Shown piece by piece: positions 8,377-31,683 of a stretch of 36,062 bases of DNA. Position 1 is the first letter of the stretch. Each line of letters opens with the position of its first letter. The notes beneath the pieces are model-generated. The model was not told the DNA's origin and did not search any database. It saw only the letters and a program-made list of their open reading frames with translations. The position numbers and the translations under genes were made by a program. The DNA comes from Ruminiclostridium sp. (GTDB lineage Bacteria; Bacillota; Clostridia; Oscillospirales; Ruminococcaceae), in assembly GCA_017635095.1 (NCBI GenBank), contig JAGBMA010000146.1, forward strand, positions 1-36,062. The letters are read 5' to 3'.

Positions 8377-11091
8377 CTAATCGACCCCGATCAGCGAATT
8401 TTCGCTATCGCTTATGGTGTAAGCCGTTGTTCCTGTGGGAATTCCCGAATTGGGTGCAAGTGCAGCCGCGTCGGCAGACCATGTAACATAGATCATATCG
8501 CCCTCGACCCTCACATCACCGATGTCTGCAACAAGCGGCTCAAGTCCGCCATCGCCGTTTCTCAGCGCTTTGAACGTTTCGCCGTCATAGCAGTACATCA
8601 GGACTATCCAGCCAGATTTGCCCGGTGCAGGCAGCCATACAGTCGCGAGCACGCGTCCGTCCGACAGTGCGTAATTGAACAGGCGGATATCTGTGCGTGT
8701 GTGGTGACCGTCAAGACCCGCTATCCATGCGCTGCTGACACTGTCGGTCTCCGCGGTGATGCCAGTCTTGCCGTATTCCATAGTGTCATTGATACGCAGC
8801 GAGCCGCTTTGGAAGATGATCTCGTCGCCGCGAAGCTGCACGTCGTTCAGTGTCAGCTCCGTGACGTACCGATCCGTTTGTGACGAACGGTATATCTGCG
8901 CCGGCAGGTCTGCGTAAACGTCGCTGAGCTGCCCGTAGCCGAACGTCCAGCCGTTCTCGTCCTTTCTGAACGTTACCGCGAAGTAGTGTTCGGTCGGCGG
9001 CTGCGGTTCGTCGTTGTCATCGAGAACCTCCACACCGTCATCGTCGGCGGGATATTCGTAGTTCAGGTAGCTCTCGTACTCGGTTTGCTCGTAGAAGCGT
9101 ATGCCGAGCGTGACGCTGTTCTCATCGCGTGTAACGAGATAATGCCGCGACTTTGCTGTCATCATATCGTCGCCGGGTACGTAATGTTTACCGTCGTCGG
9201 TATCGAAGCCCTGCTCTATGCTTTCACGGAAGAACTGTTCAAAGTCCGCACCGTAGATGTTTATCAGCTTATCCAGCCCGAGAACGCTTATCTCGCCGGG
9301 TCTGACCGTTTTGTCGATAAGCGTTTCCTCATATTCGTATCTTGAGACCCAGTCCTCCGAAAGATCGACCGCCGGACTACTATCAAAACCATTGTAGTAG
9401 ATGAGACCTGTGCAGTACATCACTTTCGGTTCGCTCTTTTCTATGACGAAAACCTCGCTCTCGCCGCTGTTGATGCACTCCATATACCATATATCGTCCG
9501 TCTCGCCGATCGCAAACGGTCGGTGAAATCCCTCGAAATCGAAGTCGAATCCCATAAGGGTTCGCTCCTCATAGTCGTAGTTGTATGTGAATGTCAGCGT
9601 GTCGTAGTCGCCGCCGGTCGCGGGAGTGCGCTTCCATGTGCCGTAAAAATTATCTTCGAGTATTTTTATCGCCTCATCGCTCGTTATTTGGAAATCAACG
9701 CTGTTATCTATGATATACCTGCGCTTCTCTTCGGGCTTCTTGTTTTCCTCGATAAATCCGGTCAGCTTGGCGCTGAATGCAGCCCATGCTTCATCAGTAA
9801 GCCCGAGTTTTTCATACAACGGCAGCATTATCTCGACTTGAGTAGCTGTAATTCCGGCTTTGGTATAATCGGCTTCGGCATGGTAGTACAGCCATCTCGG
9901 CGAGAAAACACACTCACCGACAACTATAGCGTATGGTGATTTGAATGTAGCAGCCATATCCGATTTATTCTCGGATCCGAAATACATTGTGTAGAGGTCA
10001 AACAGATGGTCTTCAAGATTTCTGCCCTCGGATATTTCTTTGCGGAGCCCTTCATCATGCTCTTTCAGTATATCTTCCATTTCTTCGCCGGACAAACCGA
10101 GTTCTTTCATAAATCGGTACACGTTCGGCGTATCGTCGATACTGTAGCGTGTCACGTTGCCCGCCTGAATATCCGCTATCTGTGCTTCCTGATACTGTGC
10201 GAGTAGATCTTCCGCACGTTCATTGTCTATAAGTTGTATCAGTTCGACATCTATCGAAGTAAACCGTTTCTGCCAGATGTCGTTGAATTCGTCGTGCCAC
10301 ATATCGGCGCTGTCGTAAACTAAAGGATCGGTCGGCGGCGCGAACGGCTCCGGCATAGACAGGTCTGTGATCACGGACAACGAGTCTGATATCTCCGGAA
10401 TGTCAAACTCGGCGTAAGCGATACCGAGGTCGAAGTCTCCGGCACCGCGGAAGTCGTCGAATGTCTTTGCGATACGGTATCTTCCGGGCTCAAGAAAATT
10501 TGTGAAGCTGCAGTACTCCTCGTTCTGACTGTCGGGGTAAAGTGTGCTTTCGAGGTAATCGCCGTACTGCGTATCGACCAGCTTCCACTCGCCGTCAGTG
10601 AGCTTTTGTATGCTGTGACCGTAGGAATATCTGATAACGCCCGACGGGCTTCCGCCGCTCTGCCGTATTATGATCTTCACGCCGCTGCTGTTTGCGGCGA
10701 CCGGTTCTATCGTAATGCCCCATTCGGCGGCATCGGTGTAGTTCGCGAACATATCGTCGATAATTGAGGAGACGTCGGGCGTACCTACCGTAACGACGGG
10801 AGCGGTGGTGGATTCGGCGGATGTCGGTTCGATAACGTTATCACGCAGATTGTTCCAGAGTACAACGCCGCCGGTTATTGCGACTGCCGCGGCAAACCCG
10901 CCGAGAATGGCGTTCCTGATACGCATACGCTTCACGTCCTTTTCCGGCAGTTTCGGCACTTCCCTGAACTCGACATGATGCACGTCTGTCTTCATTTGCG
11001 GGTCAGCATTTTCGTGTCCCACTGCGGCAAGCACGTTCCTGTCCTTTGTATCTCCTATAACATCAAGCAGCCGTTCTTCTTTCGTTCTCAT
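8377..11091 (-). CDS. Membrane-anchored putative anti-sigma/sensor with one Ig-like domain
   Basis: The ATG overlaps the sigma-factor stop as ATGA, with AAGGAGG inside the sigma gene's tail. The 904-residue protein has a ~60-residue cytosolic N-terminus, whose residues 8-24 loosely match the GGLDDxFIxxA motif of its counterparts. One membrane helix spans ~61-79, followed by a Ser/Thr linker. A clostridial Ig-like domain fills ~124-232 (WGITIEPV, RQSGGSPSG, EPGRYRIAKTF, AYAEFDI), the type found five times in the protein at 28835. Residues ~240-904 are a large extracellular region with no domain I recognise. Position, overlap and topology argue for control of the upstream ECF factor, but no zinc-finger or RsgI-type anti-sigma motif is visible, so that role is inferred. 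Confidence 0.85.
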   Translation of the reverse strand: MRTKEERLLDVIGDTKDRNVLAAVGHENADPQMKTDVHHVEFREVPKLPEKDVKRMRIRNAILGGFAAAVAITGGVVLWNNLRDNVIEPTSAESTTAPVVTVGTPDVSSIIDDMFANYTDAAEWGITIEPVAANSSGVKIIIRQSGGSPSGVIRYSYGHSIQKLTDGEWKLVDTQYGDYLESTLYPDSQNEEYCSFTNFLEPGRYRIAKTFDDFRGAGDFDLGIAYAEFDIPEISDSLSVITDLSMPEPFAPPTDPLVYDSADMWHDEFNDIWQKRFTSIDVELIQLIDNERAEDLLAQYQEAQIADIQAGNVTRYSIDDTPNVYRFMKELGLSGEEMEDILKEHDEGLRKEISEGRNLEDHLFDLYTMYFGSENKSDMAATFKSPYAIVVGECVFSPRWLYYHAEADYTKAGITATQVEIMLPLYEKLGLTDEAWAAFSAKLTGFIEENKKPEEKRRYIIDNSVDFQITSDEAIKILEDNFYGTWKRTPATGGDYDTLTFTYNYDYEERTLMGFDFDFEGFHRPFAIGETDDIWYMECINSGESEVFVIEKSEPKVMYCTGLIYYNGFDSSPAVDLSEDWVSRYEYEETLIDKTVRPGEISVLGLDKLINIYGADFEQFFRESIEQGFDTDDGKHYVPGDDMMTAKSRHYLVTRDENSVTLGIRFYEQTEYESYLNYEYPADDDGVEVLDDNDEPQPPTEHYFAVTFRKDENGWTFGYGQLSDVYADLPAQIYRSSQTDRYVTELTLNDVQLRGDEIIFQSGSLRINDTMEYGKTGITAETDSVSSAWIAGLDGHHTRTDIRLFNYALSDGRVLATVWLPAPGKSGWIVLMYCYDGETFKALRNGDGGLEPLVADIGDVRVEGDMIYVTWSADAAALAPNSGIPTGTTAYTISDSENSLIGVD

Positions 11092-11648
11092 ACTTCAACG
11101 CCCTCCTTCACAAGATACTCCCGCAGTTTTTCCCGTGTCCGCATAAGCGTCACCTTGACTTTGCTCTCGCTTATGCCGAGCCGTTTTGCAATATCGGCTA
11201 CCGTGCAGAAATTCCAGTACCGCATAAGAAACATCGTCCGTTTTTCGCGGCTCAGCGTATCGAGGAACCTGTCTATAAGCGCTGTCAGTTCCTTGTCCTC
11301 AACGCTTTTTGCAACATTTTCGCCTGAGGGTATGCAGTCGGATATTTCGCTGTAAACATCGGTGTAGTTTTCACCTGCACGACGCTTGCGGTGCAGCAGC
11401 TTCACGCGGTCAAGTGCGATATTGCGCACAATTCGGTAAATGAACGCGGCAAGCGGCGAAGGCTCAGCCGGCGGGATAGCGTTCCAGAGACGAAGATATG
11501 TATCGTTGGCACATTCCTCGCTGTCCTCACGGCTTTGCAGGATATTGTAAGCTGTGGCGCGGCAGCGAGCCCCGTATTTTTTGTCGGTCTCGGATATTGC
11601 GTCCTCCGAGCGCTCCTTGTACAGCAGGATTATCTTTTCGTCTTCCAT
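11088..11648 (-). CDS. ECF sigma factor (operon A)
   Basis: Start chosen at the ATG behind GGGAGGAAAT; the longer frame would run back through the site and the promoter. The 186 residues have a sigma-2 region with EDSEECANDTYLRLWNAIPP and RIVRNIALDRVKLLHRKRRA. After a linker comes a sigma-4 helix-turn-helix with LSREKRTMFLMRYWNF, then VADIAKRLGISESKVKVTLM. The ECxNDTY..WNxIPP signature recurs in three other sigma factors here. The tail KEGVEV encodes the ribosome site of the next gene. An ECF-type promoter lies ~35-70 nt upstream and is probably autoregulated. Confidence 0.95.
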   Translation of the reverse strand: MEDEKIILLYKERSEDAISETDKKYGARCRATAYNILQSREDSEECANDTYLRLWNAIPPAEPSPLAAFIYRIVRNIALDRVKLLHRKRRAGENYTDVYSEISDCIPSGENVAKSVEDKELTALIDRFLDTLSREKRTMFLMRYWNFCTVADIAKRLGISESKVKVTLMRTREKLREYLVKEGVEV

Positions 11649-11681
11649 ATTTCCTCCCGGCGATGTCATTTCAGAAGCTTC

Positions 11682-11717
11682 TATAAATATAAACGACAAA
11701 AACGGTGCAAAGGTTAC
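11682..11717 (-). promoter_or_regulatory. ECF-type promoter of operon A
   Basis: Minus strand GTAAC (11717-11713), 17 nt, CGTTTATATTTATAG. This matches the motif shared by the island. Confidence 0.75.
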
Positions 11718-11756
11718 ACTTTTTCTGAAAAATTTTTCTCTATCCCCTGCTGTGCT

Positions 11757-13220
11757 TCAGTGAGTATCCGGGTATCTTACAACACCTGTAAAAAGCGGCT
11801 GTCCTCTCTGTGTAAAAATAGTGAACAGGAACGGACGGTCAAGCTTCAATTCGGCATGATCGTCGGGCGGCGCAGCGCTGCCTGCACTGAATCCGATCTC
11901 TATATAAGAAACAGCCTTGCAGCCCTCCTCATCTATCATTACTCTTGACGCTGTGCTTATTTTAGATGCGGCTACGAGCGGAACATCGGTAAGCGGAGTA
12001 AAATCCGCTTTTTCCATATCGAACATATCCGTAACTCCGAGTTCTTTCAGTCCCTCTTTAAGATCGGCATTCTCGGCAATATCGAATTTCGGCACGGACA
12101 GGTCGATATACACAAACTTACTGCCGAAAGAGTCATCATCAGGCATTTTTTCCTCAATATCCGGAAATTTATCCGCGAGAAAACACATAGCTTCCGGATC
12201 ATTCAGCAGGTCATCTGTATCATATCCCTCGTCCGGAAGTATAAACCGGATCCCGGCACCGTTGTCCTTGAAGCTCATAACGCACCCGCTGAATTTCTGC
12301 CCCCAGAAGTATCGTCCCTGCATCTCTTTCTGGTGCATGAAATCACAGGATACATCGCCGTCGGGCGTGTGGAAGATATCACTGTATGTGTCCGCTCTGT
12401 CGAACTCATTATTCCATTTGCCATAGAAATTGACCGTTGAGGCGATCTCAAGCACCGGGATATCAAATCCCTCCGGCGGCTGCATCGTAACTTTATCGGC
12501 ATATTCTTTCAGCAGACCGTCCGTCTGTCCGTTGAGCCAGCCCTGGAGCGCCCTGTCATACTGTTCTGTTCCCATTTTGCCGCTGAATGTGGAAGCATAA
12601 TGTTCCCGGGCGAGTATATCAAGCGTGTCGGCGTTGTAGGTTATATCTTCATCGAGCCACAGCGAGTTTGCCGTTATCTGCTTGGCTTTGTAATTTGTAC
12701 GATAATCGGAAAGCCACAAGTCCCTTGTCTGTGACCGGAGAGTTTCGATATCACTCGCTCCGAGGAGCCGCATTATCTGCGCACGGGTGTTTCCGCCGGA
12801 TATTTCAGCGGCTATACTCAGCCCGTTGTAAACTCCCACCGGAGAAAATATACTGTTTTCTTCCGTGCCGGACAGGAAAGCCCTCATCGTACTTCGGTAA
12901 AATCCGTTCAGATCTGTACACGCTGTATCGGCGTTATCGAATATCTCTCTGCGCTGTTCGTAGTCCATTGTTTCAAAAACAGTCTTATCGGGTATCTGCG
13001 CCGCAGCTGCCAGAAGCAGATTTTCAGGTGCGAGCAGCCGTCCTATACCCACCACGGCAACTATTGCGGCAGCTGCCGCCGCTGTCGTGCGGACAGCGAA
13101 TCGTGTGAATTTTCGTCTGAATGAAAGCTTTTTATCAGTCTCGAACGCCTTTGTGATAAGTTCATCATTTATCTCCGTAATTCCCATGAACAGCTTCCTT
13201 TCGGCTGTATATCCGCTCAT
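11757..13220 (-). CDS. Membrane-anchored serpin in the anti-sigma position
   Basis: The first ATG overlaps the sigma stop (ATGA). A second ATG at 13187, behind AAAGGAAG, is an alternative start. Residues 13-26 (GITEINDELITKAF) match the N-terminal motif of the other membrane partners, and a helix spans ~44-64. Residues ~85-487 form a full serpin: NSIFSPVGVYNGLSIAAEIS, TVNFYGKWNNEF, VYIDLSVPKFDI, and the serpin signature LKLDRPFLFTI (458-468). The reactive loop runs ~431-457. The hinge reads EEGCKAVSYIEIG, where inhibitory serpins have small residues (EEGTEAAAAT), so fast loop insertion is uncertain. Counting from the hinge puts P1-P1' near Gly447-Ser448. Serpins trap serine or cysteine proteases outside the cell. 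Fused to a membrane segment behind a sigma gene, this one could inhibit proteases, sense them, or both. Confidence 0.9.
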   Translation of the reverse strand: MSGYTAERKLFMGITEINDELITKAFETDKKLSFRRKFTRFAVRTTAAAAAAIVAVVGIGRLLAPENLLLAAAAQIPDKTVFETMDYEQRREIFDNADTACTDLNGFYRSTMRAFLSGTEENSIFSPVGVYNGLSIAAEISGGNTRAQIMRLLGASDIETLRSQTRDLWLSDYRTNYKAKQITANSLWLDEDITYNADTLDILAREHYASTFSGKMGTEQYDRALQGWLNGQTDGLLKEYADKVTMQPPEGFDIPVLEIASTVNFYGKWNNEFDRADTYSDIFHTPDGDVSCDFMHQKEMQGRYFWGQKFSGCVMSFKDNGAGIRFILPDEGYDTDDLLNDPEAMCFLADKFPDIEEKMPDDDSFGSKFVYIDLSVPKFDIAENADLKEGLKELGVTDMFDMEKADFTPLTDVPLVAASKISTASRVMIDEEGCKAVSYIEIGFSAGSAAPPDDHAELKLDRPFLFTIFTQRGQPLFTGVVRYPDTH

Positions 13221-13774
13221 ATCCGCACCCCCTCTTCTTCGAGACAGATCTTTAAGCTCTGCCGCATCGTGTACATTTTCTGTGCAAGATTGTTTTCCTT
13301 GACACCGTGACGCTTAGCGATACTTTTCAGCGATTCGCCCTTCCAGTACCGCAGTATAAAGAACATTCTGTCACGCTCAGACTGCTTTTCCAGCCAGCGG
13401 CTTATTATCCGGCCGAGCTGCGCCGCATCAGCCTCGCTCTCATCATCAGCTGCCGCGGGAACGATCTCGGATATCTCATCAAATAATATCTCCGTCCCCG
13501 CAAAGCGCTTCTTGGCATGGAGCTTGTCCCATAGGTCAATGGAGATGTTCCGGACGACTTTTCCAAGCCACGGTCTGAAATGCTCCGGCTTCTGAGGCGG
13601 GATAGAGTTCCATGCAGTATTGTATGTATCGTTGACACATTCCTCCGCATCTTCCTTTGTATGCAGCACATTATACGCGAGAGTATAACAGAACTGCCCA
13701 TACCTCACATCGGTTTCCTTTATCGCGCGTTCATCTCTTGCCCAATAAAGGCTTATTATTTCATTATCGGTCAT
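13217..13774 (-). CDS. ECF sigma factor (operon B, serpin-linked)
   Basis: GGGGAGG precedes the ATG by nine nt. The 185 residues show sigma-2 (KEDAEECVNDTYNTAWNSIP, then VVRNISIDLWDKLHAKKRF) and sigma-4 (QSERDRMFFILRYWKGESLK, SIAKRHGVKENNL). Its last codons (EEEGVRI) contain a GAGGGGGTG ribosome site, and the stop overlaps the serpin ATG, so the two should be translationally coupled. The promoter 25-60 nt upstream resembles the shared ECF motif but with a weaker -35 (CTAAT). Confidence 0.95.
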   Translation of the reverse strand: MTDNEIISLYWARDERAIKETDVRYGQFCYTLAYNVLHTKEDAEECVNDTYNTAWNSIPPQKPEHFRPWLGKVVRNISIDLWDKLHAKKRFAGTEILFDEISEIVPAAADDESEADAAQLGRIISRWLEKQSERDRMFFILRYWKGESLKSIAKRHGVKENNLAQKMYTMRQSLKICLEEEGVRI

Positions 13775-13797: not shown

Positions 13798-13835
13798 TTC
13801 TATAATATAAGACGGATATCGGATAAAAATATTAG
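13798..13835 (-). promoter_or_regulatory. ECF-type promoter of operon B
   Basis: Minus strand CTAAT (13835-13831), 16 nt, CGTCTTATATTATAG. The -35 part deviates from GTAAC. Confidence 0.55.
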
Positions 13836-13925: not shown

Positions 13926-13965
13926 TGTTTATCCTGACAGGTATTCGGGAGCCTTTTGGTTTATC
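13917..13965. repeat. 49-nt intergenic repeat, copy B
   Basis: Counterpart of 8263-8311. It overlaps the right arm of a terminator and reaches the last codons of the SUKH lipoprotein gene. Confidence 0.5.
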
Positions 13966-14833
13966 CCTTGTATTTGTAATCCTCTTCCTTTATTCTGCAT
14001 TCCTCAGATGTATCCTCAAACGGAATGAATACCTTGCCTTTTTCCGTAAGATAATCGTACATATCACCAAAATTTATTTCTCTTGTGATCTCCTTATACA
14101 AAAATTCCGTCAAGGTCATATCAAACTCAGAATACTCGCCATATCGCCCGTATGCAACTATAGTCCACCTGTCGCTTCCGGTCTTCCAGTACACCGTGTA
14201 CTGACCTTCGCACTGACAGCAGGCGAGAATACCGTTATCTGCGGGATAGTAACCGAATGGGCAGCCCTCATTGTCATACCAGCCGCCATATAAAGGATAC
14301 TTTCCGTTGACATCTCTGTGATTTAAGACATTAACCGCCATTCCGTCGGAATCATAATAGCCGTCCTCTATAGAAAGTCGTTTAAATTCTTCGTAGAAAT
14401 ACTGTTCTTCATTGGTGAGAAGGTTGTAATACTTGTTATCCGAAAACGGATTATAAACATTGAACACATAGCCGAAACAGCCATCGCCGTATGTATTGAT
14501 AAGCTCTATATAGTCGTCGGGGAGCTTCGCACCTAACCGCTTTTCGGCAGCCGCGCGCATTTCGGCTGTTCCCGTACACTTCGGATCATCGGGCGGCGGT
14601 ACGATCACCGTAAGCTTTTCAAGCCAGTCGGTTTCAATGTCCGTTCCTCCTTTTGTCGCTTCTGTAACAGCTGTATCTGTACTTACGGACGTTTCCCGCG
14701 AAGAAGTTTCCGTCATGTCGGCGGTCGTTATTATCTTCTCCCGTTCTGTCCCGGACGGCGAGTTCACGCTGGTACAGCCCGATATCAGCACAGACGCCAA
14801 AAGTGCTGCTGCAAGTATCTTATTCTTTTTCAT
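13961..14833 (-). CDS. Lipoprotein with SUKH (SMI1/KNR4-like) domain
   Basis: Three ATGs stand in a row behind GGAGGAA. The third (14833) has the best spacing and gives MKKNKILAAALLASVLISGC, a signal peptide with a lipobox at Cys20. The gene overlaps its upstream neighbour by 14 nt. The mature protein has a Thr/Ser-rich linker (~21-85), then a SUKH domain from ~92 (AAAEKRLGAKLPDDYIELIN, TYGDG). The C-terminal part is rich in Tyr, Gly and Cys. SUKH domains are best known as cytosolic immunity proteins against polymorphic toxins. Here the lipobox predicts an extracellular, membrane-tethered form. It is cotranscribed with a small membrane protein from an ECF-type promoter. Confidence 0.85.
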   Translation of the reverse strand: MKKNKILAAALLASVLISGCTSVNSPSGTEREKIITTADMTETSSRETSVSTDTAVTEATKGGTDIETDWLEKLTVIVPPPDDPKCTGTAEMRAAAEKRLGAKLPDDYIELINTYGDGCFGYVFNVYNPFSDNKYYNLLTNEEQYFYEEFKRLSIEDGYYDSDGMAVNVLNHRDVNGKYPLYGGWYDNEGCPFGYYPADNGILACCQCEGQYTVYWKTGSDRWTIVAYGRYGEYSEFDMTLTEFLYKEITREINFGDMYDYLTEKGKVFIPFEDTSEECRIKEEDYKYKG

Positions 14834-15356
14834 CATCATTTCCTCCGGTTTCATTATTATCTATCTCATTTATTTCTATCATCCACTTGCTGATATACGG
14901 CTTGTCCGAGAACAACCGAGGCTTAAAGTCAAAATAGTGATAAACCCTGTACGCTTGGCTGCCAATAATAAAGCAGTCCATACCTTCCGCCATTTTATAT
15001 CCGTATGTAGTTGATACAAACATATCTATGGCGGCTTTACTTATCTGATTGTTATTTTCGGCAGCTATTCTTCGATATATGTCAAATATCTGATCCTCTG
15101 TCTTTGCACTTTCAAATTCTTCCTCTGAAACTATTCGCCTGTACTTTGCCGCGAGCATATTATAGTCCACAATCTCTATAACACACATTTCATTATTTCC
15201 CGGTGCATTCATGTATGTGCTGTCAAACACGATTCTCCTAAAATCATTTGTATACTCTTGGGTGCTTCCTGTTTCATATACATAACAATACAGTCCCAGT
15301 ATTGCTGCCGCAATAACCGACACAACAATAATTATCCATTTTATAGCTTTTTTCAT
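14820..15356 (-). CDS. Small single-pass membrane protein, partner of the SUKH lipoprotein
   Basis: Start chosen at the ATG behind GAGGGCGAAGC; the longer frame would run upstream through the promoter. The 178 residues begin MKKAIKWIIIVVSVIAAAIL, a membrane anchor or uncleaved signal (helix ~5-24). A soluble domain follows that is rich in Tyr, Ile and acidic residues, with segments such as IVSEEEFESAKTEDQIFDIY and GSQAYRVYHYFDF. No family is recognised. The acidic tail (NNETGGNDDEKE) overlaps the start of the SUKH gene, and the GGAGGAA inside that tail is the SUKH ribosome site. The promoter begins ~27 nt upstream. Confidence 0.8.
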   Translation of the reverse strand: MKKAIKWIIIVVSVIAAAILGLYCYVYETGSTQEYTNDFRRIVFDSTYMNAPGNNEMCVIEIVDYNMLAAKYRRIVSEEEFESAKTEDQIFDIYRRIAAENNNQISKAAIDMFVSTTYGYKMAEGMDCFIIGSQAYRVYHYFDFKPRLFSDKPYISKWMIEINEIDNNETGGNDDEKE

Positions 15357-15578: not shown

Positions 15579-16110
15579 TTATTCTTCGCTACCGCCCCAC
15601 TCAACGAGCGTGAAGCCGTTTCTCTCATAGTGCGGCAGTTCCTGCTCCGGGATATCCACGGGCGTGTCGCTTGAATAGTAGGTCATGAACACGCGGATCT
15701 GCGTATCGGGCGCGGGCGATACCGTAAGCGGAACACTCCGCGCGTAATCGTCGGTGTGCAGTGTGATGATGTTGTACGGGTTATCCTGCATCTTCGGCAG
15801 CCAGTAGATGATGAACTCGTTGGCTTCGCGTGCGGTAAGTCCTATGTACATCAGCTTCTCACGCAGAAATTTTGCGGTATCGGCTCCGGCAACGCAGAAG
15901 CCTTTGCTCATATCGAAGTCCGCTGCTCCCTTGCCCTCCCAGTAGAGGCAGTAATACTCGTCGCCGTTCTTGTCATACAGCGTACCGTCGGGCATTGCGG
16001 TCACGTTCCAGCCGTCGCCGTAGTCGGGATATGTGCAGGTAAGTTCGCCGCCGAGCGGGAAGTTTACCTGTACCGAAACGTCGGTTTCTTCCTCGGGGTA
16101 GAGATAGATG
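15579..16110. repeat. Conserved 3' segment shared with lipoprotein 2
   Basis: Nearly identical at the DNA level to about 18125-18660. Long runs are unbroken in the part encoding the shared C-terminal domain. Boundaries are approximate. Confidence 0.75.
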
Positions 16111-17936
16111 ACGGGTTTTTCTTTTGCAACCTCAAAAGAAATGTTGTAGTATGCTTCGTAAACCTCGCTCTGCTTATTGGTGTAGTAAACGTCCAAAGCA
16201 TCTTCCGGGAAGCTTGCAGACGGAGTGTAAACGACCGTGAGCTTTCCGGTTTCCCATACGTCGTTAGTCCAGCAGTCGATCTTCGGTGATATGTCGTACT
16301 TCCTCAGCGTTTTGAACTCGTTGCCGAGGTTTTCATACAGCATATCATAGACCTTGTAGGTGCTGTCGGACATTACCGAATAACCGAGAGAATTACTGCT
16401 CGTCCATTTATAATATGTCTTTGTGTTCCCGATAAGCGGGTTGAAGTCGTCATACGGCTCTATAACTATCTTTTCTCCGAGGTAGTAATAATCGAAATTG
16501 TCATAGTAGCCGTACTCGTTCATTTCGCCAACGGGTTTGTGTTCTGTAAGACGCCTGATATCGAGCTTCCCGTTCTTTACGGTCATAAAGCAGTGATCCT
16601 TATAGTCGGTATAATGCCAGCCGTGCTCGCCTGTTGCTATATATATGACCTCTTTCAGCGGATTATTGTCACACGTTACGAAATCGCCGAGATATTGCAT
16701 TTTTTCACTGATATACGCGAATACCTTATGTCTGTCCGGTGAATACGGTCCGTCCATTTCCGTAACGTCGTCACAATATTGGGTAACGACCTCCGGTGTG
16801 CCGTCAAAATCAAGGTCAATAAGATCGACCGCGATAGTCGTATCGGTTATGATCTCATCCTTCGCAGCGAGCACTGCGGCATAAACATCGGGAGCATAGT
16901 CATCTGTCTTAAAGCTTCCGTTTATCACGCTGTCCGTATCATCGGTTATCGGCTCCAACAGCACAATATCGGCACTCACGAAAGCGCCGTCGATGTTGTT
17001 GTATTTGAAACTCGGCTTTTTCAGTACTATCTTCGCGTAGATGAAATCGTCATTCTGGAATTTAGATACGCTTACACCGTCGTCAAGATATGTGAGAGGT
17101 GCAGCGTACCCGCGCATTGTGTCTGCATAAAATTCCTTCCCGTTGACGCTGAACTTCATCTTTTCCGGGTCATATTCCGTCATCGGCAGCGAAAGATACC
17201 GCATATATGCGGGGTCTATGATAAATTCGTAATACTCCGGTTCGGGAATGATCCTATCGTTATGTATTTCCTTTGCGCGGCGTATAAAAGCATTCAACGT
17301 GAACATCTGATCGTAGCACTTTGTATCGAAGCCGTATTCTATCTTGCTCATATACACTGCGCCGTCAGCGTGATCTACCGTCATAACAGTAGTTTCTGCC
17401 GTAAACATGTCGTTTCGCCATTCATTTATGATTGCGTCCTGCGTTCCTGCAACAGCAGCTCTGAACGCGTTGTCACACTCCGCAGACATTGCGCCGCTCG
17501 ACCACCTTGCGCACGGATTGTAACGATAGTTTTCGGGTTTGAAGGAGAATGTTATTTCGTCCGTCCAGCTGTCCTTCACGGGAACATCTCCCGGCTCGAT
17601 CGTCCATTCGTCTGTCACGTTCATATTCAGCGATGACTGATTTTCGCAGTTTATCCGCTTGCCCAGGAGCTGATTGAGCGTATACTGCATTATATCAGTC
17701 GGTTTCTCATCCACGGACGGTTTTTTGTCATCCTCATCCGCAATGACCGATACTTCGGCAGTTGTTGTCGCTGACGATGCCGTTTCTTCGGTTGTCGTTG
17801 TCGCAGTCGTCGTTTCCGCCGCGCTCGTTGTCGTCTCACTCTCCGACACTGCCGGTGCGGGTGTGCCTGCGTTGCAGCCGGAAAGCAGCAAAGCAGCAGC
17901 TGCTGCAAAAGATATAAGCTTTGATGTTTTTTTCAT
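15579..17936 (-). CDS. Large lipoprotein 1, paralog of lipoprotein 2
   Basis: CGGAGG precedes the ATG. The 785 residues begin with a lipoprotein signal, lipobox LLLSGC at Cys21, then a Thr/Ser/Glu-rich linker (~22-70). The centre is not recognised, but AVDLIDLDFDGTPEVV is an Asp-rich, FG-GAP/VCBS-like calcium-loop pattern. Residues ~607-785 form a conserved C-terminal domain starting KPVIYLYPEEETDVSV. It contains CTYPDYGDGWNVTAMPDGTL, YYCLYWEGKG and EANEFIIYWLPKMQDNPYN, a block I associate with exported clostridial proteins of unknown function. The neighbour at 18125 is a tandem paralog, nearly identical at both ends and diverged in the middle. Expected on the outer face of the membrane; promoter of the ECF motif. 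Confidence 0.9.
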   Translation of the reverse strand: MKKTSKLISFAAAAALLLSGCNAGTPAPAVSESETTTSAAETTTATTTTEETASSATTTAEVSVIADEDDKKPSVDEKPTDIMQYTLNQLLGKRINCENQSSLNMNVTDEWTIEPGDVPVKDSWTDEITFSFKPENYRYNPCARWSSGAMSAECDNAFRAAVAGTQDAIINEWRNDMFTAETTVMTVDHADGAVYMSKIEYGFDTKCYDQMFTLNAFIRRAKEIHNDRIIPEPEYYEFIIDPAYMRYLSLPMTEYDPEKMKFSVNGKEFYADTMRGYAAPLTYLDDGVSVSKFQNDDFIYAKIVLKKPSFKYNNIDGAFVSADIVLLEPITDDTDSVINGSFKTDDYAPDVYAAVLAAKDEIITDTTIAVDLIDLDFDGTPEVVTQYCDDVTEMDGPYSPDRHKVFAYISEKMQYLGDFVTCDNNPLKEVIYIATGEHGWHYTDYKDHCFMTVKNGKLDIRRLTEHKPVGEMNEYGYYDNFDYYYLGEKIVIEPYDDFNPLIGNTKTYYKWTSSNSLGYSVMSDSTYKVYDMLYENLGNEFKTLRKYDISPKIDCWTNDVWETGKLTVVYTPSASFPEDALDVYYTNKQSEVYEAYYNISFEVAKEKPVIYLYPEEETDVSVQVNFPLGGELTCTYPDYGDGWNVTAMPDGTLYDKNGDEYYCLYWEGKGAADFDMSKGFCVAGADTAKFLREKLMYIGLTAREANEFIIYWLPKMQDNPYNIITLHTDDYARSVPLTVSPAPDTQIRVFMTYYSSDTPVDIPEQELPHYERNGFTLVEWGGSEE

Positions 17937-18124: not shown

Positions 18125-18660
18125 TTATTCTTCGCTTCCGCCCCACTCAACGAGCGTAAAGCCGGTTCTATCATAGTGCGGCAGTTCCTGCTCCTGAATG
18201 TCCACAGGCGTGTTGCTTGAATAGTAGGTCATGAACACGCGGATCTGCGTATCGGGCGCGGGCGATACCGTAAGCGGAACGCTCCGCGCGTAATCGTCCG
18301 TGTGCAGGGTTATAACGTTGTACGGGTTATCCTGCATCTTCGGCAGCCAGTAGATGATGAACTCGTTGGCTTCGCGTGCCGTCAGACCTATGTACATCAG
18401 CTTCTCACGCAGGAATTTTGCGGTATCGGCTCCGGCAACGCAGAAGCCTTTGCTCATATCGAAGTCCGCTGCTCCCTTGCCCTCCCAGTAGAGACAGTAA
18501 TACTCATCGCCGTTCGCGTCGTAAAGCGTACCGTCGGGCATAGCCGTCACATTCCAGCCGTCACCGTAGTTGGGATATGTGCAGGTGAATTCTCCGCCGT
18601 ATGCGAAGTTTACTTTCACCGAAACGTCGGTCTGCTCTTCGGGGTAGAGGTAGATGACGG
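18125..18660. repeat. Conserved 3' segment shared with lipoprotein 1
   Basis: Counterpart of 15579-16110. The 5' ends (about 17870-18003 and 20395-20528), including ribosome site and promoter, are also closely alike. Confidence 0.75.
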
Positions 18661-20461
18661 GCTTCGCCTTTGCGCCGTAATCGGACGAACTCATAAGTAT
18701 GTTGTCATACTCAGCGGCTCTCTGCTTCGCGTCGAACGCGGCTATCAGGTCGGCGGGATAACGCGGATCGTTTTCAATGACCCCGGATATGTTTCCGGTA
18801 GTGCCTATGCGTGCCGTGATATCAAGCTCGTTTCTGTCCGCGAATTCGGCAAGGACTCTACGCTCCAATTCGTCATATATCCGTACTTCGGAGTCGATCC
18901 GGTAACTCAGCTGACTGTCCTTATCCTCCGTCCAGCGGTAAAATGTTTCGGTCAGTCCGGTAAAAGGATTATATTTATCAACAGGCTCAAGCTCTATTTT
19001 TTTATCGTGATAATAAAAGTCCGTTTTCCAACCGTCTTCCGTTTCATGCGCATCATATTTCAGCAGATACTTTATAGCCAGAATGCCATTTTTAAGCGTC
19101 ATAAGCGCATGTCCATGATCGGTGATGATATGCCAGCCCTTTTCGCCGGTGGGAATATATGTTCCGCTCTCTATGTTCCGGGACATATCAAGGTCAAACT
19201 CTCCAAGGAGCTTTGCTTTCCCGTCATTGAAGCCGTATATCTTAGACGGAACGACACCGCCCGGTCCGTCGCTTACATAAAATCCGCCGTCATTCTCCAG
19301 AGCTTCGAGCACAATAATTTCGGGAAGCTCGTCAAAGTCTATATCTATAAGATCATACGCGACGCATTTTTCCGTGAATATCTCGTCCTTCGCAGCAAGC
19401 ATAGTCTTATATACCCCGGAATATTTTTCGTCCGCGGAAATGCTTTCGGTCAGATAAGTGCCGTCAAGAACGGCGTCCGTGTCCTCGGTGAGTATCTCCG
19501 CCGCGAGCATATCACATTCCACATACGCGCCCTGAATGTTATCATACATAAAATCGGCGTATTTCAGCGTCAGTCTCGCGTAAACATAATCATTGCCTAT
19601 CTTTTTATATTCCTCGGAAGGGTGATCAGGAAACCATAAAGCTCTGATCTCCCGGTCATAACCGGCTGTTCCGCTTACCGTATCGGCGCAGAATGTCCTG
19701 CCGTTGACCTCGAATCTGAGCCGTTCGGGGTCGCGTTCAAACATCGGCATACCTGCTGTGAAGGCGGGGTCTATTATAAAGTCGTAATATATCTTATTCG
19801 CGTTCCTGCCTTTACTGTCGGAGCATCTGCGGACAAACGCGTTCACGACAAACAGACCCATTTCCGCATTGTACCCGCACGATATACTATCCGCGTAAAC
19901 ATTATCGTTATCCGCGCCCGATATGGTTATGACAGTATCATCGTATTTTGTATTATCGGTCGGGAAATACGGATATGAACGTTCTTTTATCGCAGACCTG
20001 AACGCCTCGTCGCATTCCGCCGAAATGGCACCGCTCGAATAGCTTGCGCCGGGACGGAGTTTCCAGTTCGATGTATGCGCGGTCAGTTCACCATTATCGT
20101 TGATCCCGAACGTGACATCGGATTTTTTGAAGCCGTCGGACATAGACCATAGATGCAGTCTGTCAGAGTTTTCGCAGACTATGTTCTTTTTGTAAAGGAA
20201 CTCATAAGGGTCGGTATGATCTTCGATCTGTTTTTTGATATCCTCCACGGAGATATATCCGTTGTTATCTTCCGATCCGGCTGTTGTCGCTGACGCAGTT
20301 GTAGTCGCTGGTGTTATTGTTCCTTCCGTTGCCGTCGTTTCCGCTGCACTCGTTGTCGTCCCGCTATCCGACACCGCCGGAGCGAGTGTTCCGGTTCCGC
20401 ACCCCGAAAGGAGCAAAGCCGCCGCTGCTGCAAAAGATATAAGTTTTGATGTTTTTCTCAT
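18125..20461 (-). CDS. Large lipoprotein 2, paralog of lipoprotein 1
   Basis: Same leader and ribosome site (CGGAGG) as lipoprotein 1. The 778 residues begin with an almost identical signal and lipobox LLLSGC at Cys21, then a Thr/Ala-rich linker. The middle is clearly homologous but diverged, sharing ASYSSGAISAECDEAFRSA and an Asp-rich YDLIDIDFDELPEI motif whose Gly is replaced compared with lipoprotein 1. The last ~180 residues are nearly the same as in lipoprotein 1 (KPVIYLYPEEQTDVSVKV, YWLPKMQDNPYN). High identity at both ends with a diverged centre suggests tandem duplication with ongoing conversion at the ends. Ligand and function unknown; expected to be extracellular. Confidence 0.9.
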   Translation of the reverse strand: MRKTSKLISFAAAAALLLSGCGTGTLAPAVSDSGTTTSAAETTATEGTITPATTTASATTAGSEDNNGYISVEDIKKQIEDHTDPYEFLYKKNIVCENSDRLHLWSMSDGFKKSDVTFGINDNGELTAHTSNWKLRPGASYSSGAISAECDEAFRSAIKERSYPYFPTDNTKYDDTVITISGADNDNVYADSISCGYNAEMGLFVVNAFVRRCSDSKGRNANKIYYDFIIDPAFTAGMPMFERDPERLRFEVNGRTFCADTVSGTAGYDREIRALWFPDHPSEEYKKIGNDYVYARLTLKYADFMYDNIQGAYVECDMLAAEILTEDTDAVLDGTYLTESISADEKYSGVYKTMLAAKDEIFTEKCVAYDLIDIDFDELPEIIVLEALENDGGFYVSDGPGGVVPSKIYGFNDGKAKLLGEFDLDMSRNIESGTYIPTGEKGWHIITDHGHALMTLKNGILAIKYLLKYDAHETEDGWKTDFYYHDKKIELEPVDKYNPFTGLTETFYRWTEDKDSQLSYRIDSEVRIYDELERRVLAEFADRNELDITARIGTTGNISGVIENDPRYPADLIAAFDAKQRAAEYDNILMSSSDYGAKAKPVIYLYPEEQTDVSVKVNFAYGGEFTCTYPNYGDGWNVTAMPDGTLYDANGDEYYCLYWEGKGAADFDMSKGFCVAGADTAKFLREKLMYIGLTAREANEFIIYWLPKMQDNPYNVITLHTDDYARSVPLTVSPAPDTQIRVFMTYYSSNTPVDIQEQELPHYDRTGFTLVEWGGSEE

Positions 20462-20622: not shown

Positions 20623-23001
20623 TTATTGAGGATTCTCAAACTGCCATACAACGCTGTCGTTGCTCCCTGTTTCCAGAAATGTTTTTATATCGTCCCAGTT
20701 TTCTCTGTCTGCATAGATCTTAACTGTGTATTTGGCATCGTCGAGGTCAAGCCGCGGGTCTCCATATATGCACAGCTCCAAACGATATCTGCCTTCAAAA
20801 TAGCTTGTCAATGCCGCGCGGAGCAATGTCACTGCGCCCACAGCAGAGGAAAACCGGGGCTCATACAAATAAATATCATATCCGGCTATGTTCTGATGGA
20901 TCAGCACATCATTACCCAGCAGACCATATCCACCCATAATGCTTGGATCCAACGGTGTAAGATCAAAAAGCTCGGTTTCTGCTTTTGTTTTGACTCCGAT
21001 ATTATCAATACCTATCTCATCGCGCATAGCCTTTGCGGCATTTGTTTTGCCGAGTTCGTCAAGCTTATCTGCGACCTCATTCGTTGTTGAGAACCAGCCG
21101 TCCACTTTTAAAAACAAATCACCTCCGTATTTAAAAAACACCGGGAAATTACTGAGATCAACAGGCGTACCGTCATTATAGCAAAGAGCAATCGGCACCC
21201 ATTCACTTCTGAGCTGTTCGGGAGTGACGAACTCAACGCGCGCTTTATCCGGCAATCCGTTTTCTGCAAGAAGCTGCTTTATCTGAGCAAGCACATCTAT
21301 CTGCTCTCCGGGCATGGACAGGCTGTCATCTGCAACTATCATCAGCCCCTCATTTTCACCGCCTGCCGACTGCACGGAGAACACATTGAACGGATAGGAA
21401 CTGTCATGCTTATTCCACAGCAGTTCTATGATCCTTCTTATCTCGGTATATTCCTCGCTCCGGCGATAAAAACTGACATAATATTTGAAATTTCCCATAC
21501 TCTGTGATACGGAAACAAGATAATCATTGCTAACTCGATATGCTTTTGTACCATATTCTTCCAACAGATCGGTGTCGTCAAGCATAGTGTACGAAGAAAG
21601 TGCGGGCAGTTCACCGCCGAGATCGTATTTCAGGCTGCCGCCGTCCGAATATTCTTTCAGTATATCCATAAGGTCATCGGGAATGATCTCATAGGCTATG
21701 GAATCTCTGTCTGCAAAAAAGTTATCTGTCCCGTAGTCTGCAAAAAAGTTATCTGTCCTGTAGCTGTATGAGGTCGGTGCGCCTTGTGGTTTTATCGACT
21801 TGAAAGCTACACCGTCCGCAACTATCCCGTCGAACGGCAGACCTCCGCCTGCTGCCATACCGGGAAGATCGTCTGGGTTGTAGTATTCTATATCGAAGGT
21901 CTTCCTGACGTGAGCAGGATTTTCAGCAGCAGAGGTAATTGAATCGATCTTCTGTATCCACTCTCCGTTTTCATTTTTTTCTATACTGTATGTTACATTC
22001 CCGATTGCGTCATACATTTTACCTAAAGTCGTTTTGAGAACTATCCTGTCGTCCGTTTCGGAAATAAGATAAACGGGATAGGCATAGTACCGCGCGTCGT
22101 GGTTGATCGTTATGTTGTTGTACTCCGTTTCGATATCGGTGATAAGCCCGAGCGGGAAACCATGCTCCGCGGCAAGCTCGCGCTGCCGGATAACGCTGAG
22201 ATAGCCGTTCTCCGGCTCGTTTATCTCTTTGTCTGTTCTGGAAAATTCCGCTATATTGGGTATGCCGTCGTAAAGATAGATGCCGTTCGGCTCCTTTCCG
22301 GCAGAGCCGCCTGCCCAGTACATTGTGTCGGGTTCATTCATATCCAGCCACCATATACTGCTTTCTGCTGAACCACCCATGCAGAAGATGAGTGTGCTTT
22401 CGCCCGACCTGTAGATACCCTCGAGGAAGCAGTTACACGCGAGCTGCGCGAACTCCGACTTTTCTGAGTCGTCAAAAACTACTTCACGGTCTCCTTTACC
22501 CCATATTCCATAAAAGTATTCTTTGAAAATATCACAGTCCTGCAGCTCAGTCCATTCGGTATCGCTTATACGAAATGCTCCGTCGGTATCAAAGTAAGCT
22601 TTGCCGAGAAGATTGAAAGCAGGGTCATAATTTATGTTACCCGGTTCGGTCGTGATCAACTCTGTTATCGCACTATCACTTGTAACATAGGGCTCGATTA
22701 CAGTCGTAACCATTCCCGGTTTATCTGGGTTTTTTATAGCTATCTTATCCCAGTTCTGCGCCAAAAGAACAACTGCACCGACTATCAGCGCGACAACTGC
22801 TGCCATACCGAGCGCACGGGTTATCCAATATATCCGCAGTTCTTTCTTGCTGATCTCTGTACCGGTTTCCACAAGTGTTATCGGAGCTGCGGTAGCAGCA
22901 CTATCCGAAACTGCATACTTTCCGGTACGAGGCATAGCTTCTTCTATAAAACTGTCGTCAAGTCCGCCGATAATTTCCATAACAAGCTCCTCGCGTCTCA
23001 T
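20623..23001 (-). CDS. Membrane-anchored putative anti-sigma/sensor (operon C)
   Basis: ATGA overlap with the sigma stop; AAGGAGG lies inside the sigma tail. The 792 residues start MRREELVMEIIGGLDDSFIE. A single helix spans ~63-81 with GMAAVVALIVGA followed by QNWDKIA, both shared almost exactly with the protein at 25999. The ~700-residue ectodomain is acidic and unlike any family I know, and unlike its sister's. It carries a nine-residue tandem duplication (RTDNFFADY/GTDNFFADR region) from a 27-nt DNA repeat. An anti-sigma role is inferred from position, coupling and topology. The conserved N-terminus would contact the sigma factor and the variable ectodomain would receive the signal. Confidence 0.85.
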   Translation of the reverse strand: MRREELVMEIIGGLDDSFIEEAMPRTGKYAVSDSAATAAPITLVETGTEISKKELRIYWITRALGMAAVVALIVGAVVLLAQNWDKIAIKNPDKPGMVTTVIEPYVTSDSAITELITTEPGNINYDPAFNLLGKAYFDTDGAFRISDTEWTELQDCDIFKEYFYGIWGKGDREVVFDDSEKSEFAQLACNCFLEGIYRSGESTLIFCMGGSAESSIWWLDMNEPDTMYWAGGSAGKEPNGIYLYDGIPNIAEFSRTDKEINEPENGYLSVIRQRELAAEHGFPLGLITDIETEYNNITINHDARYYAYPVYLISETDDRIVLKTTLGKMYDAIGNVTYSIEKNENGEWIQKIDSITSAAENPAHVRKTFDIEYYNPDDLPGMAAGGGLPFDGIVADGVAFKSIKPQGAPTSYSYRTDNFFADYGTDNFFADRDSIAYEIIPDDLMDILKEYSDGGSLKYDLGGELPALSSYTMLDDTDLLEEYGTKAYRVSNDYLVSVSQSMGNFKYYVSFYRRSEEYTEIRRIIELLWNKHDSSYPFNVFSVQSAGGENEGLMIVADDSLSMPGEQIDVLAQIKQLLAENGLPDKARVEFVTPEQLRSEWVPIALCYNDGTPVDLSNFPVFFKYGGDLFLKVDGWFSTTNEVADKLDELGKTNAAKAMRDEIGIDNIGVKTKAETELFDLTPLDPSIMGGYGLLGNDVLIHQNIAGYDIYLYEPRFSSAVGAVTLLRAALTSYFEGRYRLELCIYGDPRLDLDDAKYTVKIYADRENWDDIKTFLETGSNDSVVWQFENPQ
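21709..21762. repeat. 27-nt perfect-register tandem repeat inside an ectodomain gene
   Basis: Two adjacent copies beginning GTCTGCAAAAAAGTTATCTG differ at one base. Each adds nine codons in frame. Confidence 0.9.
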
Positions 23002-23558
23002 ATCTCGATGCCCTCCTTTTCAAGAAATTTCCGCAGCTTCTCCCGTATTCGCCGCAGTGTCACTGTGACATTTCCTTTAGTTGTGTGCAGTTCCTTTGCT
23101 ATATCGCCGTATTTGCTGCAATAGAAATAGCGGCGGACGAACATGATACGCTTGTCCCTCGGGAGCGTTTGCAGAAAGCTCTCGACAGCTTTCAGTACCG
23201 CGTTTCTGTCAGCTATACTTTCCACATTCTCGGAAACCGGCAGGAACTCCGATATCTCATCGAAGCTTACCGTGTTGTAACCGTTCCTGTTTTTGACCGC
23301 ATTACGTTTCTTGTAAATATCTATCGCAAGATTACGGACAATGCGCATAACAAAAGACCCGAGCTTTGCCGGTCTTTGCGGCGGGATAACATTCCACACC
23401 TTCATATATGTATCGTTGACACATTCCTCGCTGTCCTCATGACTGCCGAGAATGCCGTATGCCGTGCTGCGGCAGGCACCGCCGTACTTTTTATCAGTCT
23501 CTGTTATCGCGTCCTCCGACCTTGTAAAGTACAGCTCTATTATCTTTTCGTCGTCCAT
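22998..23558 (-). CDS. ECF sigma factor (operon C)
   Basis: Start at the ATG with AGGGGG upstream; the 45-residue longer frame would cover the promoter. The 186 residues contain EDSEECVNDTYMKVWNVIPP, MRIVRNLAIDIYKKRNAVK and a sigma-4 region (LPRDKRIMFVRRYFYCSKYG, DIAKELHTTKGNVTV). It is a close paralog of the sigma factor at 28119, and the linked membrane proteins share their N-termini, so the two operons derive from one duplication. The tail KEGIEI encodes the downstream ribosome site. The promoter begins ~26 nt upstream. Confidence 0.95.
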   Translation of the reverse strand: MDDEKIIELYFTRSEDAITETDKKYGGACRSTAYGILGSHEDSEECVNDTYMKVWNVIPPQRPAKLGSFVMRIVRNLAIDIYKKRNAVKNRNGYNTVSFDEISEFLPVSENVESIADRNAVLKAVESFLQTLPRDKRIMFVRRYFYCSKYGDIAKELHTTKGNVTVTLRRIREKLRKFLEKEGIEI

Positions 23559-23583
23559 TTCCGTCCCCCTGTCACAAATACTA

Positions 23584-23621
23584 TCCATATTTAAAGACGA
23601 AAAAACACACCAAAATCTAAC
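23584..23621 (-). promoter_or_regulatory. ECF-type promoter of operon C
   Basis: Minus strand GTTAG followed by ATTTTGG (from 23621), 17 nt, CGTCTTTAAATATGG. Confidence 0.65.
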
Positions 23622-23676
23622 ACATTTTTTAAAATAATTATATATCTTTTTCAGAATAATTGCAACGACATTCTCT

Positions 23677-23715
23677 TTGTGCATACTGTACATATCTGCT
23701 TGCCTGATTTGTGCA
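23677..23715. promoter_or_regulatory. Two TTGTGCA half-sites between divergent promoters
   Basis: TTGTGCA at 23677-23683 and 23709-23715. The second continues GTTATACAAAATTG, like the sites at 15452 and 20564. They lie between the minus-strand operon C promoter and the plus-strand promoter at 23750. Confidence 0.4.
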
Positions 23716-28122: not shown

Positions 28123-28679
28123 ATTTCGATACCCTCCTTTTCAAGAAATTCACGCAGCTTTTCACGAGTGCGCGTCAGGCTTTTTCTTACCCGCTCCTCG
28201 GTAGAGTTCAGATCTGCGGCTATCTCGCCGTATGTGCTGAAGTAGAAGAATCGACGAACGAACATGATCTGCTTTTCCCGCGGCAGAGTGGACAAAAACT
28301 TTTCGACCGCGTTAAGCACAGCCTGCCGGTCAACCGCGATCTCTACGCTTTCCTTCGATGGCAAACAGCCCGCTATCTCGTCAAAACCGACTGACTTGAA
28401 CCCACCGCCGTTCTTGATTCGTTTCGCGGCTTTGTACATATCTATCGCTATGTTACGCGCAATAGTCACAACAAAAGCACCGAGCTTTTTCGGTTTCTGC
28501 GGCGGGATAACATTCCACACCTTCATATATGTATCATTCGTGCACTCTTCGCTGTCCTCGTGACTTCCGAGTATGTTGTATGCCACGCTTCTGCACGCGC
28601 CGCCATATTTTCTGTCGGTCTCGGTGATAGCGTCCTCGGAGCGTTCGAAGTACAGCTTTATTATAATGTCGTCGTTCAT
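28119..28679 (-). CDS. ECF sigma factor (operon D)
   Basis: The ATG has AGGAGG upstream. The 186 residues contain EDSEECTNDTYMKVWNVIPP and VTIARNIAIDMYKAAKRIK. Sigma-4 reads LPREKQIMFVRRFFYFSTYG, EIAADLNSTEERVRK. It is a close paralog of the sigma factor at 22998, especially in the first 65 residues. The C-terminal KEGIEI overlaps the ribosome site for the membrane partner. The promoter matches the shared motif in the -10 but has a divergent -35 (GTCCG). Confidence 0.95.
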   Translation of the reverse strand: MNDDIIIKLYFERSEDAITETDRKYGGACRSVAYNILGSHEDSEECTNDTYMKVWNVIPPQKPKKLGAFVVTIARNIAIDMYKAAKRIKNGGGFKSVGFDEIAGCLPSKESVEIAVDRQAVLNAVEKFLSTLPREKQIMFVRRFFYFSTYGEIAADLNSTEERVRKSLTRTREKLREFLEKEGIEI

Positions 28680-31681: not shown

Positions 31682-31683
31682 TC

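Follow-up and report, generated by a model that had tools for sequence, protein, structure and literature searches.

The window analysed here, i.e. the whole 36,062-nt stretch spanning positions 1 to 36,062 of contig JAGBMA010000146.1 from a Ruminiclostridium sp. genome, carries on its minus strand a two-gene operon in which the gene for an extracytoplasmic function (ECF) sigma factor, P0002, runs directly into the gene for a membrane-anchored serpin, P0001. The two genes and their parts are as follows (coordinates are those of the window, residues those of P0001).

13804–13833, minus strand: promoter-like block AATATT-N14-GTCTTATATT upstream of the sigma gene, conserved in relatives at equal spacing.
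13217–13774, minus strand: ECF sigma factor of 185 amino acids (aa; P0002), with matches to Sigma70_r2 (E 3.6e-8), Sigma70_r4_2 (E 9.7e-6) and TIGR02937 (E 2.5e-19).
11757–13220, minus strand: membrane-anchored serpin in anti-sigma position, 487 aa (P0001), assigned from its Pfam match and the ATGA overlap.
13086–13220, minus strand: putative sigma-binding cytosolic segment, residues 1–45, with the core LFMGITEINDELITKA, assigned from motif profiles and co-variation.
13029–13085, minus strand: transmembrane helix, residues 46–64, with a positive flank on its N side (Kyte-Doolittle 1.98).
12867–13028, minus strand: short linker and N-terminal extension, residues 65–118, in which the family motif LAxAxYPEMPxYP is degenerate (AAAAQIPDKTVF), placed by the alignment of relatives.
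11769–12866, minus strand: serpin domain, residues 119–484 (PF00079, E 1.3e-43).
11901–11930, minus strand: reactive-loop hinge P17–P8, EEGCKAVSYI, residues 431–440, placed by alignment to tengpin and by conservation.
11856–11900, minus strand: exposed reactive loop, predicted at residues 441–455, with a nominal P1 at Gly447 (counted from P15 and uncertain by 1–2 residues).
11817–11849, minus strand: C-terminal serpin signature LKLDRPFLFTI, residues 458–468, read from the sequence; R462, P463 and F464 are invariant in alignment A1.

With sigma regions 2 and 4 only, P0002 is an ECF sigma factor: it scored 69.5 bits against the NCBIfam sigma70-ECF model TIGR02937 (cut-off 42.9) and 33.5 bits against Sigma70_r2 (cut-off 24), and its Sigma70_r4_2 match of 25.6 lies just under the cut-off of 25.7. 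The 3′ end of the sigma gene reads ...CGG ATA TGA, and its stop overlaps the start of the serpin gene as ATGA (13217–13220), just as an earlier note on this DNA, whose range covers both of these minus-strand genes, had stated. In the encoded P0001, a cytosolic stretch of ~45 residues is followed by a single membrane helix, a short linker and a full-length serpin domain. The 15 residues before the helix hold six positive and no negative charges, and the next-best hydrophobic segment reaches a Kyte-Doolittle value of 0.98. PF00079 was the sole Pfam family detected at E 0.1 or better, with 150.1 bits (cut-off 27) over positions 19–370 of the 370-position profile; together with the intact C-terminal signature, this bears out the note's description of a complete serpin ectodomain. 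The best relatives in PDB were tengpin entries and conserpin (E 6e-25 to 2e-24), the latter of which we take to be a designed consensus serpin. Overall, P0001 has the general layout of a transmembrane anti-sigma factor, namely a sigma-adjacent gene, a cytosolic N-terminus, a helix and a putative extracellular sensor. Chance or an annotation artefact was ruled out, as this layout is kept in L110 and L113 (97–98% identity) and in 31 further aligned relatives (32–40% identity). No second serpin was found in the genome (assembly of 236 contigs, 98% complete).

Twelve sigma factors of the P0002 subfamily are encoded in this genome (E below 1e-36). Over the own genome and the family loci combined, 29 of 36 subfamily sigma genes lead into a partner gene that starts at ATGA or GTGA; for the remaining seven, the chosen partner start lay elsewhere nearby or none was found. 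Common to the partners are an N-terminus of the type LxxAIGxIDDxxIxEA and a hydrophobic helix, while the ectodomains vary from case to case. Scored against 2000 composition-matched shuffles, residues 1–45 of P0001 gave 7.4 bits with a profile of 30 non-serpin partners (one shuffle as good; the profile omits 22 partner entries, i.e. other sigma classes, unsure starts, fragments and a duplicate, as well as three serpin ones), 5.8 bits with a profile of 47 serpin-linked relatives (two shuffles as good), and 23.6 bits with a profile of five relatives picked after inspection as looking closest (no shuffle as good). When longer stretches were scanned, the window's motif score of 3.4 did not rise above the shuffles (up to 4.9 among 1880); the window copy is thus divergent, closer relatives are needed to recognise it, and the relatives carry the case.

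Pfam recognised no domain in the cytosolic segment, and a PDB sequence search with it returned no solved anti-sigma factor: its four matches up to E 10 (best 0.16) are all, by name, designed repeat proteins. Among 13 non-serpin partners of the subfamily scanned with Pfam, 12 likewise had no domain, and P0003 had a bacterial Ig-like domain. The serpin is therefore among the few readable sensors in the set, and, should it indeed act as a receptor, would offer a functional handle on these little-known sigma partners.

Further relatives came from two genome searches within the same family (396 and 392 genomes) and one across the class (391 genomes). Serpins occurred in 108 of the 396 genomes. The 63 serpin loci from a scan of named genomes carry, with few exceptions, the labels Ruminococcus, Oscillospiraceae, Lachnospiraceae or other Clostridia, and many come from records with rumen or gut in the title. 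Of the 94 non-identical related open reading frames (ORFs) for serpins, 53 directly follow a subfamily sigma gene. All but two of these sigma-linked serpins (51 of 53) scored above the shuffle maximum for the partner motif, the two being the window and its near-copy L113. Conversely, where 600 nt or more of upstream sequence held no subfamily sigma (31 ORFs), the motif was lacking in 30; sigma genes were sought here with a profile built from P0002 and its neighbours P0004 and P0006 (E 1e-6), which would miss other sigma classes. The exception, L096, bears the motif, is preceded by the conserved promoter and has a sigma gene immediately downstream. Ten of the 94 ORFs, open at the 5′ end or with <600 nt of preceding sequence, were set aside, among them L094, whose motif lies at a contig end. 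Most motif-less serpins whose starts were read begin signal-like or lipoprotein-like; a helix without the motif was seen in two, the first serpins of L048 and L100.

The ATGA overlap recurred in 44 of the 53 sigma-linked serpins (window included) and a helix with a hydropathy of at least 1.6 in all 53; ten of them, the window not included, have a second such segment near the C-terminus, inside the serpin domain. Of the neighbouring genes found, the sigma gene alone recurred widely (35 of 40 loci, compared to 6 for the cluster ranked second). Fourteen loci (L189–L202) from the wider class search, in which 108 genomes had a match, were inspected for sigma and motif, and one of them, L189, has the same sigma–serpin layout outside the family. 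Conservation across many genomes thus upholds the earlier proposal of a serpin in the anti-sigma slot, mounted on the short motif and single helix of the other partners. As a side observation, a motif-less serpin stands beside the sigma–serpin pair in L048, L100 and L107 and may be a regulated target.

Co-variation was assessed from distance matrices of the first 32 residues, the sigma factor and the serpin in 50 of the 53 sigma-linked systems, 38 of them after dereplication. The N-terminus closely followed the sigma factor (r 0.87; partial correlation given the serpin 0.78), also in the dereplicated set (r 0.82, partial 0.76; none of 2000 permutations as high). For 32-residue windows of the ectodomain against sigma, the maximum was 0.25 and the mean 0.05. 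Within the sigma factor, it was the linker and region 4 that tracked the N-terminus (partial 0.29–0.48), with region 2 reaching at most 0.12.

The phylogenies, 'quick' trees without bootstrap, point to an exchange of receptors. Serpins of the main set form one clade of 60 (100*), whereas serpin-paired sigmas appear in several places of the sigma tree (51 versus 33 others, with sigmas scoring under 150 left out), implying seven changes, at least five of them forced by starred branches; this contrast suggests that receptors have been swapped on a shared chassis. In L195, the same chassis carries a serpin of another clade (approximately unbiased (AU) test against its grouping with the main set as a single clade, p 1.2e-4), and in the near-identical L199 and L200 (genomes G574 and G637) the serpin is partnered by an ECF sigma of a different class (AU p 0.006), both p-values being weakened by the groups having been named after the tree was seen and referring to a hand-picked subset of sequences. 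At L199 and L200, the sigma frame overlaps a gene for its own cytosolic N-terminus, a membrane helix, a long Pro/Thr-rich linker and a serpin, to all appearances a convergent sigma–serpin pair. We estimate that serpins were recruited to this position at least twice, probably three times. An AU test of all motif-bearing serpins as one clade (p 1e-36) says little about origins, since six motif-less serpins lie inside the main clade.

The promoter proposed earlier at 13798–13835 was recovered, in that it contains the block 13804–13833 common to three distinct relatives at identical spacing. Counted over 44 of the 53 sigma-linked upstream regions, AATATT-N14-GTC[TA]TA occurred in six (window, L110, L113, L078, L084 and L087; Markov-shuffle mean 0.00, maximum 1), GTTAC-N15..18-[CT]GTCT in 21 (Markov-shuffle mean 0.03, maximum 2) and TGTAA-N15..19-[CT]GT[CG][TA] in six (shuffle mean 0.30, maximum 3). 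The three patterns do not overlap and together account for 33 of the 44 regions, counts whose significance is partly post hoc because the two-block patterns were picked by eye from earlier output. As the serpins of L078, L084 and L087 are 39–40% identical to that of the window, equal spacing is not expected by chance. A classical TGAAAC-type pattern led nowhere (5 of 43 regions; shuffle mean 1.9, maximum 6). In five further genomes, the strict block gave four exact matches, in three genomes and, by their coordinates, at the serpin operons of L084, L087, L096 and L113, as well as one two-mismatch site downstream of a serA-like gene in the L092 genome (reversed controls: eight in all); the L078 genome held no match to the strict pattern. 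Such a distribution would fit positive autoregulation.

We modestly favour, as the best explanation, an anti-sigma factor that uses its serpin as an extracellular receptor, similar to RsiV and under positive autoregulation. For its components, our confidence differs: an anti-sigma function of P0001 is very probable from the sequence evidence, while we infer with somewhat less assurance that the signal is a protease, and an autoregulated serpin is, to a similar degree, the likely main output. The architecture, the sigma pairing, the N-terminal co-variation, the conserved promoter, the exchangeable ectodomain and the presence of an M50 protease have support at the sequence level; physical binding, a protease as the ligand, loop insertion as the trigger and a proteolytic cascade are what we infer.

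Serpins are textbook single-use protease traps, and their use as a receptor can be pictured as follows. At rest, residues 1–45 would hold the co-translated ECF sigma factor at the membrane, and outside the cell the serpin would present its reactive loop. A serine (or cysteine) protease attacking this loop would either be trapped by the serpin or cut it. The serpin would then spring from its stressed into its relaxed form, thereby exposing a flexible juxtamembrane segment to a site-1 protease, before an RseP-like intramembrane protease completes the cleavage. The freed sigma factor would transcribe its own operon, leading to more serpin at the surface.

Several known systems share parts of this arrangement. 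Like the arrangement proposed here, RsiV/sigma-V combines a membrane anti-sigma factor with an ECF sigma factor, the extracellular part being a receptor for an enzyme; lysozyme binding opens RsiV to signal peptidase and then to site-2 protease, with a conformational change proposed (PMC4183432). Unlike RsiV, P0001 has a serpin as its ectodomain, with no RsiV-type ectodomain among its Pfam matches at E 0.1 or better; its ligand would be a protease, and its ~45-aa cytosolic segment carries a motif of its own. The RsgI/sigma-I systems of cellulolytic clostridia likewise comprise many paralogous pairs per genome with exchangeable extracellular sensors (PMC12484212, PMC3413522). They differ in that the sigma here is of the ECF type (regions 2 and 4, with P0002 matching sigma70-ECF models) and the sensor is a serpin instead of a carbohydrate-binding module, and Pfam gave no RsgI domain match in P0001. 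Class II anti-sigma factors (CnrY) also have a short cytosolic segment before one helix, and that of P0001 falls below the limit of 50 aa under which anti-sigma domains were set aside as possible class II in a study that showed sigma/anti-sigma co-variation (PMC7406223). The P0001 segment fits class II in length, and may be of the CnrY type; it had no sequence match to an anti-sigma factor in PDB. The class I ASDI domain is described there as four helices of ~100 aa on average (PMC7406223), compared to ~45 aa without a Pfam domain in P0001.

Among serpins, tengpin shares with P0001 (E ~7e-25) the serpin domain with its hinge, breach Trp and C-terminal signature. Unlike for P0001, no sigma-linked cytosolic segment is described for tengpin or the siropins in the passages drawn on here (PMC5127057). 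The siropins, amplified as fragments of ~1.5 kb and with calculated masses of 43.75 and 48.1 kDa (PMC5127057), were considered as members of the anchored group; their masses, which lie below that of the anchored form, argue against it. PinA, the cellulosomal serpin of Clostridium thermocellum, is likewise a clostridial serpin displayed at the surface; unlike P0001, it is described as shielding the cellulosome from subtilisin-like proteases, with no sigma pairing in the parts of the source used (PMC12484212).

In 52 anchored serpins, the hinge mostly reads G-C-[KR]-A-[AVS]-[SA]-x-T, with small residues at the alternate positions P12 (Ala in 51), P10 (Ser or Ala in 52) and P8 (Thr in 48), presumably those whose side chains enter the sheet. 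Tyr at P9 occurred in nine of the 52 versus 22 of 34 related ORFs without the motif, a comparison that omits 8 of the 94 ORFs (pattern misses or truncated) and whose motif-less ORFs include 5′-truncated ones. Mean entropy was 0.95 bits in the hinge, 1.54 in the serpin domain and 2.04 in the loop proper. The bulky hinge (GCKAVSYIEI) from which the earlier note argued that the window serpin may not be a fast inhibitor is indeed present, with Ile at P8, but the argument itself is weak, as the family hinge is conserved with small residues at P12, P10 and P8. Against the consensus of inhibitory serpins (P17–P9, ExGTEAAAA; PMC8233489), the window's EEGCKAVSY fits at P17 Glu, P16, P15 Gly and P12 Ala and differs at the other positions.

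From the helix to the N-terminal motif of the serpin, the linker measures 11–144 residues (median 28 in 34 proteins), with 11 in the window, where an Ala-x-Ala ~ten residues past the helix makes a signal peptidase site plausible. Cleavage at LAxAxYP by signal peptidase, as an RsiV-like site 1, was set aside for the group, because the linkers of most relatives (20–144 aa) are too long by the linker-length rule for a classical signal peptidase site; the YP motif is also kept in free serpin relatives.

A number of points weigh against a serpin acting as a protease-triggered anti-sigma receptor. Within the serpin, the window lineage departs at P8 (Ile) where the anchored family is mostly small, and fast inhibition by the window protein is not assured. 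For the breach Trp194 and the shutter residues S53, S56, N186 and H334, which we take to be usual in inhibitory serpins, the tengpin alignment shows S53 and W194 to be kept in the window, with S56 changed to Gly, N186 to Ser and H334 to Thr; across the 54 anchored serpins, position N186 is always occupied by Ser or Thr, and position H334 by Gln in 38, His in 13 and Thr in three. The window serpin also sits on a long branch of the serpin tree. Linker lengths of 11–144 residues make a direct or rigid mechanical coupling through the helix unlikely in general, and favour a cut in the linker instead. The N-terminus follows its own serpin weakly (partial 0.24; dereplicated 0.17, with 46 of 2000 permutations as high). 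Since the N-terminal codons adjoin the 3′ end of the sigma gene, physical linkage or a recombination breakpoint could mimic the co-variation with sigma; under that interpretation too, sigma and N-terminus would be one module and the serpin the exchangeable part. At L190, the serpin bears the motif, yet the 1.5 kb inspected in front of it showed no sigma gene. The strict promoter search of the own genome recovered the operon copy as its sole exact match and a single two-mismatch site (reversed control: seven), so that no regulon beyond the operon emerged. An M50 protease is encoded in the genome (E 1.8e-57), but M50 matches also occurred in all 14 control genomes and its presence is permissive only. 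The naming of the AU groups after the fact belongs to the same side of the balance.

A rival reading takes the serpin as the product rather than the sensor of the circuit. The N-terminus would then be a true anti-sigma segment and the serpin an effector, the real signal lying elsewhere, e.g. in membrane or envelope stress. Exact copies of the promoter block turned up at serpin operons alone (a single one, that of the operon, in this genome, and four across the five other genomes searched), which makes the serpin the output that can be seen; in addition, related serpins without motif or sigma exist, some of them beside an anchored serpin (L048, L100, L107). On the other hand, sibling partners place other ectodomains on the same chassis, which is the usual receptor layout, and an effector needs no fusion to a sigma-holding segment, a fusion that another serpin lineage acquired separately. 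We consider this alternative improbable, if the strongest of those weighed.

A marginally lower probability is given to the serpin fold being a non-inhibitory receptor for a peptide, glycan or other ligand, with loop cleavage being irrelevant. Hormone-binding serpins are non-inhibitory ligand binders. The altered N186 and mostly altered H334 of the anchored family, as well as Ile at P8 in the window lineage, would agree with such a receptor, as would the conserved Gly at the loop centre near the nominal P1 (entropy 0.66 at G447), unlike a fast-evolving bait. However, the strong conservation of the hinge, with small residues pointing inwards, is more than a non-inhibitory serpin would have to maintain, and among free serpins outside the clade, N186 is Ser in 9 of 23 and H334 is Gln in 13 of 23 as well. 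Because motif-less serpins share part of the shutter changes, these are not a mark of a sensor role. The same conserved Gly speaks against a host-driven arms race in the loop, a possibility also considered.

That P0001 is a membrane-tethered protease inhibitor sharing the operon with sigma by happenstance, its N-terminus being a signal-anchor only, would accord with a superfamily survey naming membrane-anchored prokaryotic serpins as a localisation class, with sigma unmentioned in its main text (PMC8233489), yet this is very improbable and was rejected, since the N-terminal motif is common to 30 partners with other ectodomains, accompanies the sigma gene and co-varies with the sigma factor.

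Returning to the serpin as a protease-sensing anti-sigma factor, we regard it as evenly balanced whether there is a receptor class in which the protease-triggered transition from the stressed to the relaxed serpin gates transcription, with serpin lineages recruited at least twice and probably three times. Belonging to the same joint reading, and held with the same reserve, is a sigma-docking motif of ~30 residues that has no Pfam model and would define a new family of anti-sigma factors with largely uncharacterised sensors. If true, gut and rumen Clostridia would own a direct 'protease alarm' that switches on its own serpin; a serpin put to use as the receptor controlling a transcriptional switch would extend the fold to a new role and offer commensals a direct readout of protease load. 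Serpins of one gut commensal are known to target human proteases linked to inflammatory bowel disease (PMC5127057). Transmembrane anti-sigma factors are a known kind; a serpin as their receptor was not found described. In line with the earlier note, which knew of no such case, our search of the open-licence literature returned no fusion of a serpin to an anti-sigma factor.

Serpin-like proteins were also seen in phages: tblastn of P0001 matched proteins encoded in two unannotated human-faecal phage records (MT835510.1:32665–33687 and MT835777.1:11157–12182) at 21–23% identity (E 7e-13 and 5e-11).

In the window as a whole, ECF sigma genes are frequent. Within 24 kb of the minus strand (8377–13774, 20623–23693, 25999–28679 and 28835–32181) lie five of them, each followed by a large partner gene. 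Four of the five sigmas belong to one subfamily; the fifth (31684–32181) is not among the subfamily matches, and its partner (28835–31687) contains five Big_14 stretches. Upstream of the sigma–serpin operon, the minus-strand gene at 13961–14854 encodes a protein resembling SUKH/SMI1 that narrowly misses the Pfam cut-off (E 1.2e-5). Two tandem lipoprotein-like genes lie at 15579–17936 and 18125–20461 (both minus strand); their family has no assignment, and their C-terminal ~150 residues look near-identical by eye. Two plus-strand genes, 23831–25045 and 32543–33742, gave weak matches to choline-binding repeats (E 0.004 and 3e-5, below the cut-off), the former also matching DUF4179 weakly.

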